Positions 13,107 to 44,284 of a stretch of 64,000 nt of DNA are shown in pieces. Within the stretch, counting starts at the first letter, position 1; every line of letters starts with the position of its first letter. The notes under the pieces were generated by a model. That model was given only the letters and a program-made list of their open reading frames with translations, did not search any database and was not told the origin of the DNA. Source of the stretch: Robertkochia sediminum (GTDB lineage Bacteria > Bacteroidota > Bacteroidia > Flavobacteriales > Flavobacteriaceae). The stretch is from assembly GCF_016786255.1 (NCBI RefSeq), contig NZ_JADMKT010000080.1, positions 70,796-134,795 of the forward strand, in the 5' to 3' direction. Position numbers and translations under genes: made by a program.

Positions 13107-13212
13107 GCGGAGGGAGAGAGGAAATATTCCCAGCATTTTAGCCGTTACTGACTGTATATTATCCGTTTTGTATTAATTTAGTTCTATTATAAGCCAATAT
13201 TAGCTTTAATTA

Positions 13213-36900: not shown

Positions 36901-36930
36901 GGAATAATTCCTAATTTTGGGAAAAATTCC
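36901..36930 (+). promoter_or_regulatory. Two GGAA-N3-TTCC dyads flanking the dinB -7 element
   Basis: GGAATAATTCC occupies 36901-36911, the -7 element TAATTTTG 36912-36919 and GGAAAAATTCC 36920-36930. The dyad centres are 19 bases apart, about two helical turns. A repressor on both would cover the -7 element and the transcription start. This has the geometry of a repressor operator, perhaps DNA-damage regulated, but the protein is unknown. Confidence 0.7.
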
Positions 36931-36937
36931 AATAAAA

Positions 36938-38152
36938 ATGAACAGGACCATCCTCCACCTCGACCTCGATACTTTTTACGTATCGGTAGAGCGATTGATC
37001 GACAGCCGACTCAAAAAGCGGCCGCTTCTCGTTGGGGGTACCAGCGACCGGGGGGTGGTGGCAGCTTGTTCGTATGAGACCCGTGCCTTTGGAGTGCATT
37101 CGGGCATGCCTATGAAGATGGCCAGACAGCTGTGTCCGGAGGCTGTGGTGATACGCGGTAATGCAGGTGTGTACAGTAAGCATTCCGATATGGTTACCGA
37201 CATTATCAAAGAGCAGGTGCCTGTATTGGAAAAGTCGAGCATCGATGAGTTCTATGCCGACCTCTCCGGGATGGATCGCTTCTTTGGGTGTTATAAATAC
37301 GCATCCGAATTGCGGCATACCATTACCAAAGAAACGGGACTCCCTATTTCTTTCGGACTCTCGGTAAATAAGGTGGTCTCTAAGGTGGCTACCAATGAGG
37401 CCAAGCCTAATAATCAGCTCAAGATCGATTACGGATTCGAAAAGCCGTTCCTGGCGCCTTTATCCATTAAAAAGATCCCTATGGTGGGCGATAAGACCTA
37501 TCAGACCCTGCGCAATCTCGGACTCAAACAGATCAGGACCATACAGGAAATGCCAAGAGATATGATGCATTCGGTACTTGGGATGAATGGAGTCACGATC
37601 TGGGACAGGGCTAATGGCATCGACACCTCTCCGGTGATCCCCTTTAACGAACTTAAGTCGATCTCTACCGAGCGTACCTTTGATAAGGATACCATCGATG
37701 TGGTGCGACTTCGCGGACTCCTTACCGCCATGACCGAGAACCTGGCCTTCCAGTTGCGTCGCGGCGATAAGCTTACGGCCTGCGTGGCAGTGAAGATCCG
37801 CTATTCCGATTTCAATACCTATACCAAACAGCTGCGTATCCCGTATACCAGCGCCGACCATATTCTGATCCCTGCCATCCTGGATCTCTTTGAAAAACTT
37901 TATAACAGGCGATTGCTGGTGCGCCTTATCGGGGTGCGCTTTAGCCACCTGGTGGGAGGCCATTACCAGATCAACCTCTTTGACGATACCCGGGAGCGCC
38001 TCGATCTCTATGAGGCCATGGACAGGATTCGCGAACGATTCGGGGAACGTAGCGTACTGCGTGCCGCTGCCATGGATGCCCGGACCATCGGACGCATGTA
38101 CAATCCGTTTAATGGCCAGCCACCACCGGTACTGGCGCATAGAAAACAGTAG
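36938..38152 (+). CDS. Y-family DNA polymerase (DinB/ImuB-like)
   Basis: A 404-residue Y-family polymerase for translesion synthesis. The catalytic motif I HLDLDTFYVSVE (residues 7-18) and motif III SSIDEFYADLSG keep their acidic residues, so it should be active. The helix-hairpin-helix IPMVGDKTYQTLRNLGLK and a little-finger domain follow. A tight partnership with the dnaE gene 44 bases downstream resembles ImuB-DnaE2 cassettes of other phyla; unlike ImuB it retains catalytic acids. I used the ATG at 36938, just after the second dyad; a TTG at 36917 would lie inside the promoter. Confidence 0.88.
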   Translation: MNRTILHLDLDTFYVSVERLIDSRLKKRPLLVGGTSDRGVVAACSYETRAFGVHSGMPMKMARQLCPEAVVIRGNAGVYSKHSDMVTDIIKEQVPVLEKSSIDEFYADLSGMDRFFGCYKYASELRHTITKETGLPISFGLSVNKVVSKVATNEAKPNNQLKIDYGFEKPFLAPLSIKKIPMVGDKTYQTLRNLGLKQIRTIQEMPRDMMHSVLGMNGVTIWDRANGIDTSPVIPFNELKSISTERTFDKDTIDVVRLRGLLTAMTENLAFQLRRGDKLTACVAVKIRYSDFNTYTKQLRIPYTSADHILIPAILDLFEKLYNRRLLVRLIGVRFSHLVGGHYQINLFDDTRERLDLYEAMDRIRERFGERSVLRAAAMDARTIGRMYNPFNGQPPPVLAHRKQ

Positions 38153-38154
38153 TC

Positions 38155-38189
38155 ATTCACAATTCACCATTCATCATTCACCATTCACT
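38155..38189 (+). repeat. Heptamer array ATTCACN, 5 units
   Basis: Units ATTCACA, ATTCACC, ATTCATC, ATTCACC and ATTCACT fill the gap between the dinB stop and the dnaE start almost completely. The next heptamer ATAACCC is a degenerate copy that contains the in-frame TAA before the TTG start. Confidence 0.85.
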
Positions 38190-38196
38190 ATAACCC

Positions 38197-41157
38197 TTGT
38201 ACCTCAATTGCCATACATATTACAGTCTGCGTTTCGGAACCTTCTCCGAGACCGATCTCCTCGAACTGGCCCGGGAGATGGAGGCAGGGTGTATTGCCCT
38301 GACCGATATCAATAATACCTCGGCCTGTCTCAACTTTGTGCGTAAAGCTTCGGAGTATGGGGTGCGTCCCTTATTGGGGGTCGATTTTCGTAATGGAGTG
38401 AAACAGGAATTCGTGGGACTGGCAGCTGATAATAACGGATTTTATGAGCTTAACGATTTCCTCTCCGATCACCTGCATCGCGGGGTTGCGTTCGATAAGC
38501 GTGCGCCTCATTTTAAGCATGCCTGGGTGGTCTATCCCTTTGAGAAGGTGCTGGAGGAAGAGATGGCGCAATTCAGGGAGAATGAGTTTATCGGGGTTTC
38601 TGTTGCCGACCTGCGTAAATTGCCCTTTTCCCGTTATATCAATGAACATCGCGACCGTTTGGTGGTGCAGCAACCGGTAACCTTTCGCAATAAACGGGAT
38701 TTTAATGCGCACCGGTTGTTGCGGGCTATCGATAACAACATCCTGTTGAGCAAGCTCGATAAAAAGGAGGAAGCTTCAGAAGATGAACGTATGTATCCCA
38801 TGCCAAACCTGGCCATGGCCTTTCGCGAGCATGCCTTTATCCTCGAGAATACCCGGAGGCTTATGGAGCAATGTGCGATCGAATTCGACTTCTCCGACTC
38901 CAAACCCATGCAGAACCAGCGCAGCTATACCGGTGACGAAGAAGCCGACTGGCAGTTGCTTCGCGAGCTCTGTGAAAAAGGGCTGCCTTATCGCTACCCC
39001 GTGGCAGGCCCGGACATCATGGAGCGTATAGAAAAAGAGCTGTCGGTGATCAGGGAGATGAATTTTGTATCCTACTTTCTCATCAATCACGATATTATCA
39101 CCTATGCGAAAAGCAAGGGGTATTTTCATGTAGGCCGGGGGAGTGGTGCCAATAGTGTGGTGGCCTATTTGCTAGGGATCACCGATGTGGATCCCATGGA
39201 GCTTGATCTCTATTTTGAGCGCTTTATCAATCGCTACCGTACGAGTCCGCCCGATTTTGATATCGATTTTTCCTGGCGCGACCGCCAGGATGTGACCCGG
39301 TATATCTTTGAGCGGTTTCCGAACGTAGCCCTGCTGGGAGCCTATGTAACCTTTCAGTACCGGGGGGTGGTACGCGAACTGGGTAAGGTGTTCGGACTTC
39401 CTAAGGAAGAGATCGACAGGCTCAGTGATGAGCGCAAGGTGATGCAGGACCTCGATGAGACGGCCCGGTTAGTGATCAAATACGGACAACTCATTCATGG
39501 GATGCCTAATTATGTGAGTATCCATTCCAGTGGGATCCTTATCAGTGAGCGGCCCCTGCACTGGTTTTCGGCCACCAATATGCCCCCTAAAGGATTTCCT
39601 ACGGTGCAGTTCGATATGCATATCGCCGAAGATGTGGGGCTGTATAAGTTCGATATCCTCGGGCAACGCGGACTCGCAAAGATCAAGGAGGCAGTGGCCA
39701 TTATCCGTGAGAATCAGCCGGAAGCTCCTCCCTTCGATATTCATGATATACGAAGCCTCAAGCAGGATGAGAAGATCAACGCCATGGTGAGTCGGGCTCA
39801 GTGTATGGGGTGCTTTTATGTCGAGTCACCGGCCATGCGCATGCTGCTTAAAAAACTGGAGGTCGATAATTACCTGGGGCTGGTGGCAGCGAGTTCGATC
39901 ATTCGTCCCGGAGTGTCCAAAAGCGGAATGATGCGGGAGTATATTCTCCGCCACCGTGATCCCGAGCGCAGAAAAGACGCCCACCCGGTGATGCGGGAGA
40001 TCATGCCCGATACCTATGGGGTTATGGTCTACCAGGAAGATGTGATCAAGGTGGCCCACCATTTTGCCGGACTCACCCTGGGGGAGGCCGATGTACTGCG
40101 GCGGGGGATGAGCGGGAAGTACCGCTCCCGGGAAGAGTTTAAGAGGGTCGAAGATAAGTTTATTGAGAATTGCCGGGAGAAAGGTTATGCCGAAGAGATG
40201 ATACAGGAGGTGTGGCGGCAGGTGGCAAGCTTCGCAGGGTACGCCTTTGCGAAAGGGCATTCGGCCTCTTATGCCGTGGAGAGCTATCAGAGTCTTTTTT
40301 TACGGGCCTACTTTCCGCTGGAATACATGGTGGCGGTGCTCAATAACGGGGGCGGATTCTACCGTACCGAGATCTATGTCCACGAAGCTCGAATGCTTGG
40401 CGCTACTATCCATGTGCCCTGTGTGAACCGCAGCTTTCCGCAGCATACCATACAGGGTAAGGATATTTATTTGGGATTGTTGGTGCTGCAGGAACTGGAA
40501 GAGCGTACCGCTTTGAATATCGTCAGGGAACGTTTGCAGGAAGGTGAATACCGGTCGTTAGACGACTTCGTAGACCGGGTGCGTATTGGCATCGAGCAGT
40601 TGTCGATCCTGATACGTATCAATGCCTTTCGCTTTACCGGCGTCGATAAGTACGAGCTGCTTTGGCATGCCCATTTTAAACTGGGAGTGAGTAAGAAGCC
40701 CGAATTACAGCAGCGGTTGTTTCGGCCGCCCCATCGCGATTTTGAGATCCCCGTATTGCATACGACCGACCTGGAAGCCGCCTTCGATCAGATCGAGTTG
40801 CTGGGGTTTTGCCTTTGCAGTCCGTTCGAATTACTGAAGGAGAAGCCTCTGAATGATCATACCACCAAAGATCTGGAGCGCTTTCTGAATCGGAATATCG
40901 ATATCTATGGCTATCTCGTAACCGTAAAGCGCACCAGAACCCAGCACGGGAAAGAAATGAACTTCGCCACCTTTATTGATCAGGTGGGAGAGGTGTTCGA
41001 CTGTACCCTGTTTCCGCAGGTCGCAGCCAAGTATTATTTCAGAGGGAAGGGGATCTATCGCCTCTATGGTAAGGTGGTCGATGAGTTCGGATTTCTGAGT
41101 ATCGAGGTGATCAAGATGCGTAAGGAAGAGTACGTGGAAGACCCGAGGTACAAGTAA
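38197..41157 (+). CDS. Second DNA polymerase III alpha subunit (DnaE2-like)
   Basis: A 986-residue C-family polymerase. The N-terminal PHP domain starts YLNCHTYYSLRFGTFS and has lost the usual HxH of active PHP sites. The polymerase signature HVGRGSGANSVVAYLLG and the catalytic PPDFDIDFSW (two Asp) are present, as is a KGHSASYAVESYQ segment. Shorter than replicative DnaE (about 1150-1450), with no long C-terminal tau-binding region, and paired with a Y-family polymerase: this suggests an error-prone repair polymerase. A TAA sits in frame at 38191, so the start must be the TTG at 38197. Confidence 0.88.
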   Translation: MYLNCHTYYSLRFGTFSETDLLELAREMEAGCIALTDINNTSACLNFVRKASEYGVRPLLGVDFRNGVKQEFVGLAADNNGFYELNDFLSDHLHRGVAFDKRAPHFKHAWVVYPFEKVLEEEMAQFRENEFIGVSVADLRKLPFSRYINEHRDRLVVQQPVTFRNKRDFNAHRLLRAIDNNILLSKLDKKEEASEDERMYPMPNLAMAFREHAFILENTRRLMEQCAIEFDFSDSKPMQNQRSYTGDEEADWQLLRELCEKGLPYRYPVAGPDIMERIEKELSVIREMNFVSYFLINHDIITYAKSKGYFHVGRGSGANSVVAYLLGITDVDPMELDLYFERFINRYRTSPPDFDIDFSWRDRQDVTRYIFERFPNVALLGAYVTFQYRGVVRELGKVFGLPKEEIDRLSDERKVMQDLDETARLVIKYGQLIHGMPNYVSIHSSGILISERPLHWFSATNMPPKGFPTVQFDMHIAEDVGLYKFDILGQRGLAKIKEAVAIIRENQPEAPPFDIHDIRSLKQDEKINAMVSRAQCMGCFYVESPAMRMLLKKLEVDNYLGLVAASSIIRPGVSKSGMMREYILRHRDPERRKDAHPVMREIMPDTYGVMVYQEDVIKVAHHFAGLTLGEADVLRRGMSGKYRSREEFKRVEDKFIENCREKGYAEEMIQEVWRQVASFAGYAFAKGHSASYAVESYQSLFLRAYFPLEYMVAVLNNGGGFYRTEIYVHEARMLGATIHVPCVNRSFPQHTIQGKDIYLGLLVLQELEERTALNIVRERLQEGEYRSLDDFVDRVRIGIEQLSILIRINAFRFTGVDKYELLWHAHFKLGVSKKPELQQRLFRPPHRDFEIPVLHTTDLEAAFDQIELLGFCLCSPFELLKEKPLNDHTTKDLERFLNRNIDIYGYLVTVKRTRTQHGKEMNFATFIDQVGEVFDCTLFPQVAAKYYFRGKGIYRLYGKVVDEFGFLSIEVIKMRKEEYVEDPRYK

Positions 41158-41895: not shown

Positions 41896-41996
41896 AATAT
41901 CTGCTGATCAGTTATTTAGGTTTATTGAGTTGTTTTAAGGCTTGAAAAATTTAAGGCTCCGGCAGAATGAACCACACTTTAAAACGCAAGAGTGAC

Positions 41997-42362
41997 ATGA
42001 AACAATTAACCAAGGCAGAAGAAGAAGTAATGCAGGTGTTATGGAAGCTGGAAAAGGCCAGTGTGAAGGCTATGATCAAGGAATTTCCTGATCCTAAGCC
42101 GGCTTATAATACGGTTTCGACCATTGTTCGTATCCTGGAGACCAAGGGTTTCGTTGATCATGAACAAAGGGGGAAAGGGTATCTGTATTTCCCGGTGGTT
42201 GCAAAAGAAGAATACAGTAATCAGTCGATCAATTCGGTAGTGGAAAAATACTTCCAGGGATCCTTTAAAAGCATGGTCTCCTTCTTTGTGAAGAAGAATG
42301 ACCTGAGCATGAAAGAAATGGAAGAGATCATGAAGGAGATCGAAAAAAATAAGGAGTTATGA
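41997..42362 (+). CDS. BlaI/MecI/CopY-family repressor
   Basis: A 121-residue winged-helix repressor: LTKAEEEVMQVLWKLEKASVKAM is the N-terminal helix region, YNTVSTIVRILETKGFV the recognition helix and GYLYFPVV the wing. The C-terminal helices mediate dimerisation and usually include the site cut by the partner peptidase. It overlaps the M56 peptidase gene by four bases, the normal BlaI-BlaR1 arrangement. I used the ATG at 41997; the frame from 41967 adds ten residues that do not fit the family. Confidence 0.9.
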   Translation: MKQLTKAEEEVMQVLWKLEKASVKAMIKEFPDPKPAYNTVSTIVRILETKGFVDHEQRGKGYLYFPVVAKEEYSNQSINSVVEKYFQGSFKSMVSFFVKKNDLSMKEMEEIMKEIEKNKEL

Positions 42363-44284
42363 TACGTTATTTGATCATCATGTTGAGTTGCCAGCTGTTG
42401 TTTCTGCTGGTATACGATCTGTTCCTGAAAAAAGAGACCTTCTTTAACTGGAACCGGGTGTATCTCCTGGTAACACCCCTGTTATCTTTGGTAATTCCGT
42501 TCATTCGACTGGATGCGCTCACTACGACGGCTCCTGAAATATTGTCTGCGGCAGCTCCGGCGATCTTTTTGGAGCCTCAGGCGGTAAGTGCAGTGCAAGT
42601 TGTTGCTCAGGAGTCAGGAAACAACCTTAATACGTGGGAGTGGTTGGCTATTGCGGGAAGTAGCGTTGCCTTCCTTTTCTTTGCTTACAAATTGCTTTTG
42701 CTTCTGCGATTAAGGCAAACAGGATTCATTCGTCGTTTTCGTGATTATTTGCAGGTCGAGGTGCCTCAGAGCGAGATCGCCTTCTCCTTCTTCAGGCAGA
42801 TATTTCTCGGAAATAAAGTATTGGAACGTAAGCACGATCACATTATCGAACACGAGCTGGTGCATATACGGGAAGGACATACCTGGGATCTGCTGTATTT
42901 TGAAGTGCTCCGTATCCTTTTCTGGTTCAATCCGCTGGTTTATGTGTTCCAGGCTCGTATCACTGAGCTTCACGAATACATCGCCGATGCTAAAATGGCC
43001 GGTAACGGAAAAAAGGAAACCTATCAATATTTACTGGAAGAGGTCTTTCAGACTCAGAAGATCTCCTTCGTCAATTCATTCTTCAATCATTCATTAATCA
43101 AAAAACGCATTGTTATGTTACATCAAAATCGATCGAAACAGATCAGGAAGTTCAAATACCTGCTAATGATCCCCCTGCTGTTGGGGATGTTGGTGTATAC
43201 CTCTTGTGAGCAGGAAGTTGATTCTACAAAGTCCTCCCCGGTGGAAGGCCTGGATCCTCAAGTACAAAAGTATTACCATGAGTATAAGGCCATGATCGAG
43301 TCGGGTGCCGATATTTTTGAGCTCACTAAAGATATTTACAGTAAAACTCCAGATGGAGAGATCATGTCTGAAGAGTATTTCTACCGCACCGGAGCCCTTT
43401 GGCTTTTAAAGAAAGAGACTTTCGATGAATCTGTTGGTCTGAGTGATGAGCTGAAAGAGGAGTTAGACCGGCTGGTTAAAATGACTTACAAGCAATATCT
43501 GATGACTAAGAAGCAGGAGAAAAATCCTGTATACACGTTTACCTCAATTGCTGAAAAACCTTCGTTTCAAGTTCCTTGTGAAGAAGGAGCGGACGCTTTC
43601 ACCTGCTTTAAAGAGCAATTGGATGACCATGTGATAAAAACGTTCCGTTATCCGGAGGAGGCTCGGGAAAAAGGGATCCAGGGAAGAGTATATCTGAACT
43701 TTAAGATCGATACCGATGGAAGTATTTCCATTCTTCAGACCCGCGCGCCCCATGAACTCCTGGATGCTGAGGCTCGCAGGATCATTGAATCCTTACCAAA
43801 ACTCAATCCGGGGAAAAAGGCCGATGGCACCCCCGTACCGATCACCTTTGCATATCCGATCATTTTTAAGTTGGGAGATGGCGTTGAAGCTGATAGTGAA
43901 TCTGTGGTGGTAAAGAATGATATTGCGGGGTCTTCGGAAGTACCCTTTACGACGATTCCTGTGAAACCCAGTTTTAAAACACCCTGTGCAGATGGTCAGG
44001 AGGCTTTTGCATGCTTTAAGGAGAAACTAAATGCGCATGTAATAGCAACCTTTCAGTATCCCGAAGAAGCCAAAGCAGCAGGGATCGAAGGAAAGGTTTA
44101 CCTGAACTTCAGAATTGATACCGACGGTAATGTGAAGGTCATCAATTCAAGGGCACCACATGAACTGCTGGATACCGAGGCTCGGAGGATCATTGAATCG
44201 TTGCCCGTTCTCAATCCCGGGGGAGATGAAAATGGAAATCCGGTGCCTGTAAGTTTTGCTTATCCGATTGTTTTTAAGTTGTAA
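42359..44284 (+). CDS. BlaR1-like M56 peptidase with two C-terminal TonB domains
   Basis: A 641-residue sensor-like protein. Four hydrophobic segments (about 1-23, 32-50, 95-117, 262-282) surround the zinc motif H165-E-L-V-H169 in HIIEHELVHIREGH, the M56 site used by BlaR1 to cut BlaI. Beyond residue 395 two TonB C-terminal-like domains (about 395-505 and 530-641) repeat each other almost residue for residue, including the shared GRVYLNFKIDTDG/GKVYLNFRIDTDG strand and EARRIIESLP. These could sense or bind a cell-envelope partner; the ligand is unknown. Overlaps the repressor gene by four bases. Confidence 0.88.
   Translation: MIRYLIIMLSCQLLFLLVYDLFLKKETFFNWNRVYLLVTPLLSLVIPFIRLDALTTTAPEILSAAAPAIFLEPQAVSAVQVVAQESGNNLNTWEWLAIAGSSVAFLFFAYKLLLLLRLRQTGFIRRFRDYLQVEVPQSEIAFSFFRQIFLGNKVLERKHDHIIEHELVHIREGHTWDLLYFEVLRILFWFNPLVYVFQARITELHEYIADAKMAGNGKKETYQYLLEEVFQTQKISFVNSFFNHSLIKKRIVMLHQNRSKQIRKFKYLLMIPLLLGMLVYTSCEQEVDSTKSSPVEGLDPQVQKYYHEYKAMIESGADIFELTKDIYSKTPDGEIMSEEYFYRTGALWLLKKETFDESVGLSDELKEELDRLVKMTYKQYLMTKKQEKNPVYTFTSIAEKPSFQVPCEEGADAFTCFKEQLDDHVIKTFRYPEEAREKGIQGRVYLNFKIDTDGSISILQTRAPHELLDAEARRIIESLPKLNPGKKADGTPVPITFAYPIIFKLGDGVEADSESVVVKNDIAGSSEVPFTTIPVKPSFKTPCADGQEAFACFKEKLNAHVIATFQYPEEAKAAGIEGKVYLNFRIDTDGNVKVINSRAPHELLDTEARRIIESLPVLNPGGDENGNPVPVSFAYPIVFKL

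Follow-up and report, generated by a model that had tools for sequence, protein, structure and literature searches.

The systems closest to the one analysed here are those of the Bacteroidetes, which use "non-canonical LexA" proteins made of an HTH_3 and a peptidase S24 domain (Sanchez-Osuna et al. 2021, PMC8565304). One group of these systems, found primarily in Flavobacteriaceae, is associated with the motif GGA-N5-TCC, which stands before dinB(-dnaE), splB, a uracil-glycosylase operon, umuDC, SRAP, the repressor's own gene and, in several species, recA (PMC8565304). In the same work the protein of Salegentibacter agarivorans bound GGA-N5-TCC in EMSA, and the predicted targets of this species responded to mitomycin C, with the exception of recA; in both species of that study the largest induction was that of error-prone polymerase genes. 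The fold of non-canonical LexA has already been modelled there, and the portion of the report at hand mentions two or more instances of the motif without giving their spacing.

The window studied here is a stretch of 64,000 nucleotides from Robertkochia sediminum, in which two dyads of this type frame the promoter of a dinB-dnaE operon. The left dyad, GGAATAATTCC (36901-36911, + strand; centre 36906, near -18 relative to the transcription start predicted below), and the right dyad, GGAAAAATTCC (36920-36930, + strand; centre 36925, near +2), share their half-sites and have their centres 19 bp apart, all of it where the original prediction had placed it. The 8 bases separating them are exactly TAATTTTG (36912-36919, + strand), the -7 promoter box that the dyads had been said to flank, and this word agrees with the flavobacterial sigma-A consensus TAnnTTTG, located at -12 to -5 in the available text of PMC9723704. 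By that convention transcription of dinB is therefore predicted to start at 36924, within the right dyad, and the dyads, near -18 and +2, would span the core promoter. Taken by itself, the -7-like word occurs at chance frequency (36 matches to TANNTTTG vs 39 expected).

The first gene of the operon is dinB (36938-38152, + strand), which encodes a Y-family DNA polymerase with IMS and IMS_C matches and starts with an ATG at 36938, as do the orthologues of the relatives; the mechanically called start, a TTG at 36917, falls inside the operator and is unlikely. It is followed after 44 bases by a gene for a 986-aa DNA polymerase III alpha-type protein (38197-41157, + strand), the presumed dnaE2-type partner. 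The description of the latter as a second dnaE was right, because one further match to it exists in the genome, on contig C64 (32% and 40% identity in two segments), and no more. The interval between both genes (38156-38196) consists mostly of short ATTCA-type repeats. Further along the window, 41967-44284 holds a BlaI-type repressor gene and then a gene with BlaR1-type M56 peptidase and TonB_C domains.

The scan of the complete genome proposed along with the original prediction returned the gap-8 GGA-N5-TCC pair at four places in the host, all of them at damage-response genes: dinB-dnaE2, an HTH_3 + S24 repressor gene, recA and a splB-like gene. On contig C66 the pair lies 53 bp before the gene of the HTH_3 + S24 protein, and on contig C58 it lies about 110 bp upstream of recA and does not cover the likely -7 box of that gene, which is some 40 bases farther downstream. 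The fourth place (C71:38911-38940, L227), which surfaced with the looser published motif, precedes a splB-like radical SAM gene, an assignment that comes from a Pfam call made on the protein of a relative. The gap of this operator also contains a -7-like word, TATTTTTG, and the right dyad contains the splB ATG, whose offset does not change between the host and three relatives of the same genus (L234, L235, L236). The splB mRNA is hence predicted to be leaderless, with transcription probably starting on the A of the ATG and with operator and start codon overlapping. The host homologs of an exonuclease (L228, L229) have no site directly upstream.

Our results also supply the regulator, which the original prediction had left unknown. 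The search for S24/LexA-like repressors recovered a 254-aa non-canonical LexA on another contig (G000:C66:113691-114452), with an N-terminal HTH_3 domain (PF01381, 40.1 bits for a cut-off of 23) and a C-terminal peptidase S24 domain (PF00717, 49.9 bits for a cut-off of 23.3). The LexA DNA-binding domain PF01726 is absent from its domain matches, and with the canonical LexA profile TIGR00498 it reaches 21 bits, far below the cut-off of 111. The Ala-Gly and Ser/Lys positions are kept: Ala104-Gly105, Ser143 and Lys182 are invariant in 18/18 aligned orthologs, as is the sequence ADIERG in the helix-turn-helix. We take Ser143 and Lys182 to be the catalytic dyad by the position of their motifs, as in S24 peptidases. 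Clear orthologs are present in 17 of the 59 relatives compared (44-91% identity, E <= 2e-67), whereas the next S24 matches have E >= 5e-27. The protein of Salegentibacter agarivorans DSM 23515 (L165), presumably accession WP_075324850.1, is 58% identical over 249 aa, and that of Robertkochia marina, 92% identical, comes first among the best 80 of 564 matching genomes. Searching the sequences of solved structures with the repressor profile yielded nothing beyond weak matches to HTH domains and one coiled-coil hit that is spurious.

Divergent from the repressor gene, the host carries a putative DNA-repair gene (TIGR03915-like, DUF4130; L002:751-1395, - strand), whose score of 101 bits is slightly below the cut-off of 112. 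A single GGAAAATTTCC lies about 34 bp before its start, and this gene is possibly an extra, fifth target.

Comparison of the host and 59 relatives links the repressor to the paired sites. The exact gap-8 GGAW-N3-WTCC pair is found in 18 of the 60 genomes, which are precisely the 18 that have the repressor, and in none of the 42 that lack it (Fisher p 1e-15 for 18/18 vs 0/42, a statistic that ignores kinship and is inflated by it). With the looser GGA-N5-TCC pair, the 18 repressor genomes yield 46 pairs (control 7), and the 42 repressor-less genomes yield 6, distributed over 5 of them (control 2). Furthermore, when the gap is left free between 3 and 17 bases, gap 8 accounts for 32 of 54 places in the repressor genomes vs 0 of 10 in the others. 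The repressor gene itself follows the same pattern. An S24 match was present in 44 of the 60 genomes, and among the 30 upstream regions compared, strict sites precede the repressor's own gene in 18/18 orthologs (at least two in 16). Extending the comparison to the best 80 of 564 named relatives, each of the 79 readable promoters contains between two and four GGA-N5-TCC sites, which add up to 180, compared with 5 control sites in the 80 upstream regions; the locus left out (L183) has its promoter missing at a contig end.

These observations bear directly on the identity of the protein that uses the dyads. Another protein with this fold, such as the S24 protein of contig C21 or a prophage repressor, could bind them, with the C66 protein regulating only itself; the host indeed contains a second S24 match, 21% identical to the C66 repressor (G000:C21:16797-17474). 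We consider this very improbable, since the GGAW pair tracks the C66 ortholog exactly (18/18 vs 0/42) and the weaker S24 genes found elsewhere have no strict sites at their own promoters (0/12 examined). The dyads are almost certainly docking sites of a LexA-like damage repressor encoded elsewhere in the genome, of a type known in relatives. More specifically, it is highly probable that the two dyads form a composite operator through which the non-canonical LexA of C66 would repress dinB-dnaE2 until DNA damage occurs.

For this species we infer that the repressor binds the dyads as two cooperating dimers, represses by occlusion and is cleaved. In the undamaged cell, two repressor dimers would sit side by side, one on each GGA-N5-TCC dyad, as the Salegentibacter EMSA suggests. 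The geometry of the promoter indicates that these dimers would mask both the -7 box and the transcription start, excluding RNA polymerase and keeping dinB-dnaE2 off. When DNA is damaged, the repressor, stimulated by RecA filaments, would cleave itself at Ala104-Gly105 by means of Ser143/Lys182, as the conserved residues lead us to expect. With the dimers gone, dinB-dnaE2, splB and the repressor gene itself would be transcribed, and perhaps recA as well.

The same geometry speaks to a second alternative, in which the protein bound to the dyads is an activator, or each dyad serves a different protein instead of both receiving dimers of one repressor. According to PMC8565304 itself, excluding activation calls for data from a non-cleavable mutant. 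Nevertheless, the sites take up an occluding position, over both the -7 box and the predicted start, the half-sites are common to both dyads, and pairs of this kind are also found at the repressor's own promoter, so that we give this alternative very little credence.

Repression by the C66 protein is also consistent with the distribution of the sites at dinB. A dinB-type match was found in 55 of the 60 genomes, and the best 30 upstream regions were compared, together with that of G026. Two sites lie directly upstream of dinB in 14 of the 30 regions, with gap 8 in 13 of them and gap 11 in the other, and each of these genomes bears the repressor; the 16 regions without two sites come from repressor-bearing genomes in 3 cases and from repressor-less ones in 13. 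As regards the comparison of dinB promoters that the original prediction called for, two sites are thus in place in 14 of the 18 repressor-bearing genomes, and in two more (G005 and G016) the pair stands before dnaE2, which precedes dinB in both. In G014, four sites lie between the repressor and SRAP genes, and dinB is found farther downstream on the SRAP strand, in a putative operon. G026, which completes the 18 genomes with the repressor, lacks any site at dinB. In G048, which belongs to another family, the repressor gene and dinB are divergent neighbours with one common pair.

An ungapped comparison of five genomes of the genus gives 99% identity over the 30-bp operator, vs 26% and 41% in two upstream blocks. 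The left dyad GGAATAATTCC is retained in 4 further genomes of the genus that were searched, with GGAAAAATTCC in its place in one.

A single dyad is unremarkable and the pair is what is remarkable. There are 4 instances of the single GGAANNNTTCC in the window vs 1.71 expected, and 4 or more were reached in 8/100 shuffles; genome-wide, GGAWWWWWTCC occurs 67 times vs 45 for its backwards control. The search for single dyads as a way of finding the regulon was dropped for this reason, the singles being near chance. We left a single GGAAATATTCC at window position 13120 off the list of targets; its neighbours are a gene of the DHDPS family on one side and one for an AraC-type regulator on the other. 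On the other hand, GGA-N5-TCC-N8-GGA-N5-TCC is found once in the window and in 0/100 shuffled windows, and 4 times in the 3.53 Mb genome vs 1 for the backwards control. A stricter form (GGAW/WTCC halves, W cores, one outer T, gap 2-14) is found at 3 genomic places, all of them with gap 8, for 0 in the control. The search for GGAANNNTTCC-N8-GGAANNNTTCC with up to two mismatches gave no excess in the genome (3 places vs 5 for the backwards control), and it is informative by the genes it reached, not by their number, because the control exceeds the pair; its three places are those at dinB-dnaE2, the repressor gene and recA. That the dyads are chance A+T-rich palindromes, or sequence that merely neighbours a promoter, is the least credible reading of all: it can point to the near-chance singles and to the two-mismatch search, and it is already contradicted by a pair that no window shuffle produced, by its recurrence at four damage-related genes and by the conservation of the operator against diverged flanks.

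recA was found in 56 of the 60 genomes and 30 upstream regions were compared, 16 of them from repressor-bearing genomes; the pair is present in 3/30, namely in the host and in two relatives of the same genus, and there is none in the recA regions of the 13 other repressor-bearing genomes. We see recA as a recent and less certain candidate member of the regulon, the function of its pair being probably weaker because it lies off the -7 box and is limited to the genus. Further genes with paired sites in relatives are splB, an RNase_T/GIY-YIG exonuclease gene, umuDC and SRAP, and 8 of the 9 splB loci tested in relatives match the host splB. At least three pairs have no assigned damage gene alongside (G002:C18:376235, G002:C2:6126 and G016:C19:332055), and the first of them (L142) has no gene start close by. 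The pair in G016 (C19:332055-332084, L238:1556-1585) is a gap-8 pair with A+T-rich cores and marks a possible further target.

The spacing of neighbouring sites may follow a rule of its own. In the 79 repressor promoters (from the best 80 of 564), neighbouring sites are 19-23 bp (51 cases), 29-32 bp (25) or 40-42 bp (17) apart, with 8 further spacings at 72-108 bp and none at 24-28 or 33-39 bp. These values have a period of about 10.5-11 bp, with R 0.69, reached by 0/5000 uniform draws, for 80 loci pooled into 24 label groups, 8 of which are MAGs or organisms labelled separately; the statistic sets aside the 8 spacings greater than 60 bp and is compared with a null that is uniform over 14-45 bp and ignores shared descent. 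The period grid was finer for the observed maximum than for the null draws; at 10.5 bp, a point of both grids, R is likewise 0.69. We also considered that the 40-42 bp class might hide a degenerate middle site, and rejected this: the average of its 17 promoters, excluding the last few, under-counted offsets, has no motif-like remnant at any offset. One promoter (L211) has a candidate middle site at offset 19, with 2 mismatches of 6.

We tentatively propose that the SOS operator is a composite with a spacing rule, in which targets mostly have 19 bp between centres (gap 8), repressor promoters have about 2, 3 or 4 helical turns, and the values in between are avoided. Since the spacings are near whole helical turns, the repressor dimers would cooperate on one face of the DNA helix, and this rule would persist while the core sequence, the distance to the -7 box and the number of sites drift. 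We give the rule an even chance at best, because shared descent could yield part of the periodicity. The fixed 8-base gap and the way the pair straddles the -7 box may be new, in that they go beyond the "two or more instances" mentioned in the accessible text of PMC8565304. If the rule is true, it would provide a stricter finder of SOS targets for Flavobacteriaceae (46 pairs in 18 genomes vs 6 in 42), as well as a simple system in which to test cooperative binding by phage-derived SOS repressors.

Altogether, the prediction that this is a two-site repressor operator of a damage regulon is well supported by the candidate operators that also precede recA, the repressor gene, splB and the dinB operons of relatives. 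Its suggestion that the regulon might not be described for this group does not stand, the class having been published for Flavobacteriaceae in 2021 (PMC8565304). In the literature searched, no paper pairs Robertkochia with LexA or with the SOS response and, among the later papers listed, none is nearer to this system than PMC8565304; those that cite it or share its terms are, judged by titles, reviews or studies of other organisms. An orphan motif thus becomes an assigned damage regulon in Robertkochia, for which a repressor gene and four candidate targets can be named.

Among known systems, lambda CI offers dimers cooperating on one DNA face, the same arrangement as proposed here. Canonical LexA is also an autoregulated, self-cleaving S24 repressor of damage genes, but it has the LexA_DNA_bind domain, whereas the C66 repressor has the HTH_3 of phage repressors. 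A protein of canonical LexA architecture was seen in one genome of the same family (G021, L026:797-1396, - strand), divergent from dinB, with LexA_DNA_bind at 47.8 bits, an S24 domain, and TIGR00498 at 96 bits, below the cut-off of 111. In the adjacent stretch L026:1396-1500, TTTGTTCTA / TAGAACAAA form an inverted repeat that is perfect over 9 bp, and the 8 bases between its arms are the -7-like box TATTTTTG. This LexA may be an exception, because PMC8565304, in the text at hand, reports no LexA homologs in complete Bacteroidetes genomes. The CTAA-N5-TTAG group of the same study has the same protein architecture and SOS role as the host system, and its operator differs from the GGA-N5-TCC of the window. 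The GGA-N5-TCC group, exemplified by S. agarivorans DSM 23515, shares with the host system the HTH_3 and S24 domains, the catalytic residues, the motif and autoregulation, as well as the targets dinB-dnaE, splB and recA, and the published account reveals no essential difference between them. With the repressor's domains, cleavage and dyad residues and orthology, and the sites at its own gene and at targets, all found, the window operator is, as judged from sequence, an instance of the published GGA-N5-TCC non-canonical LexA system.
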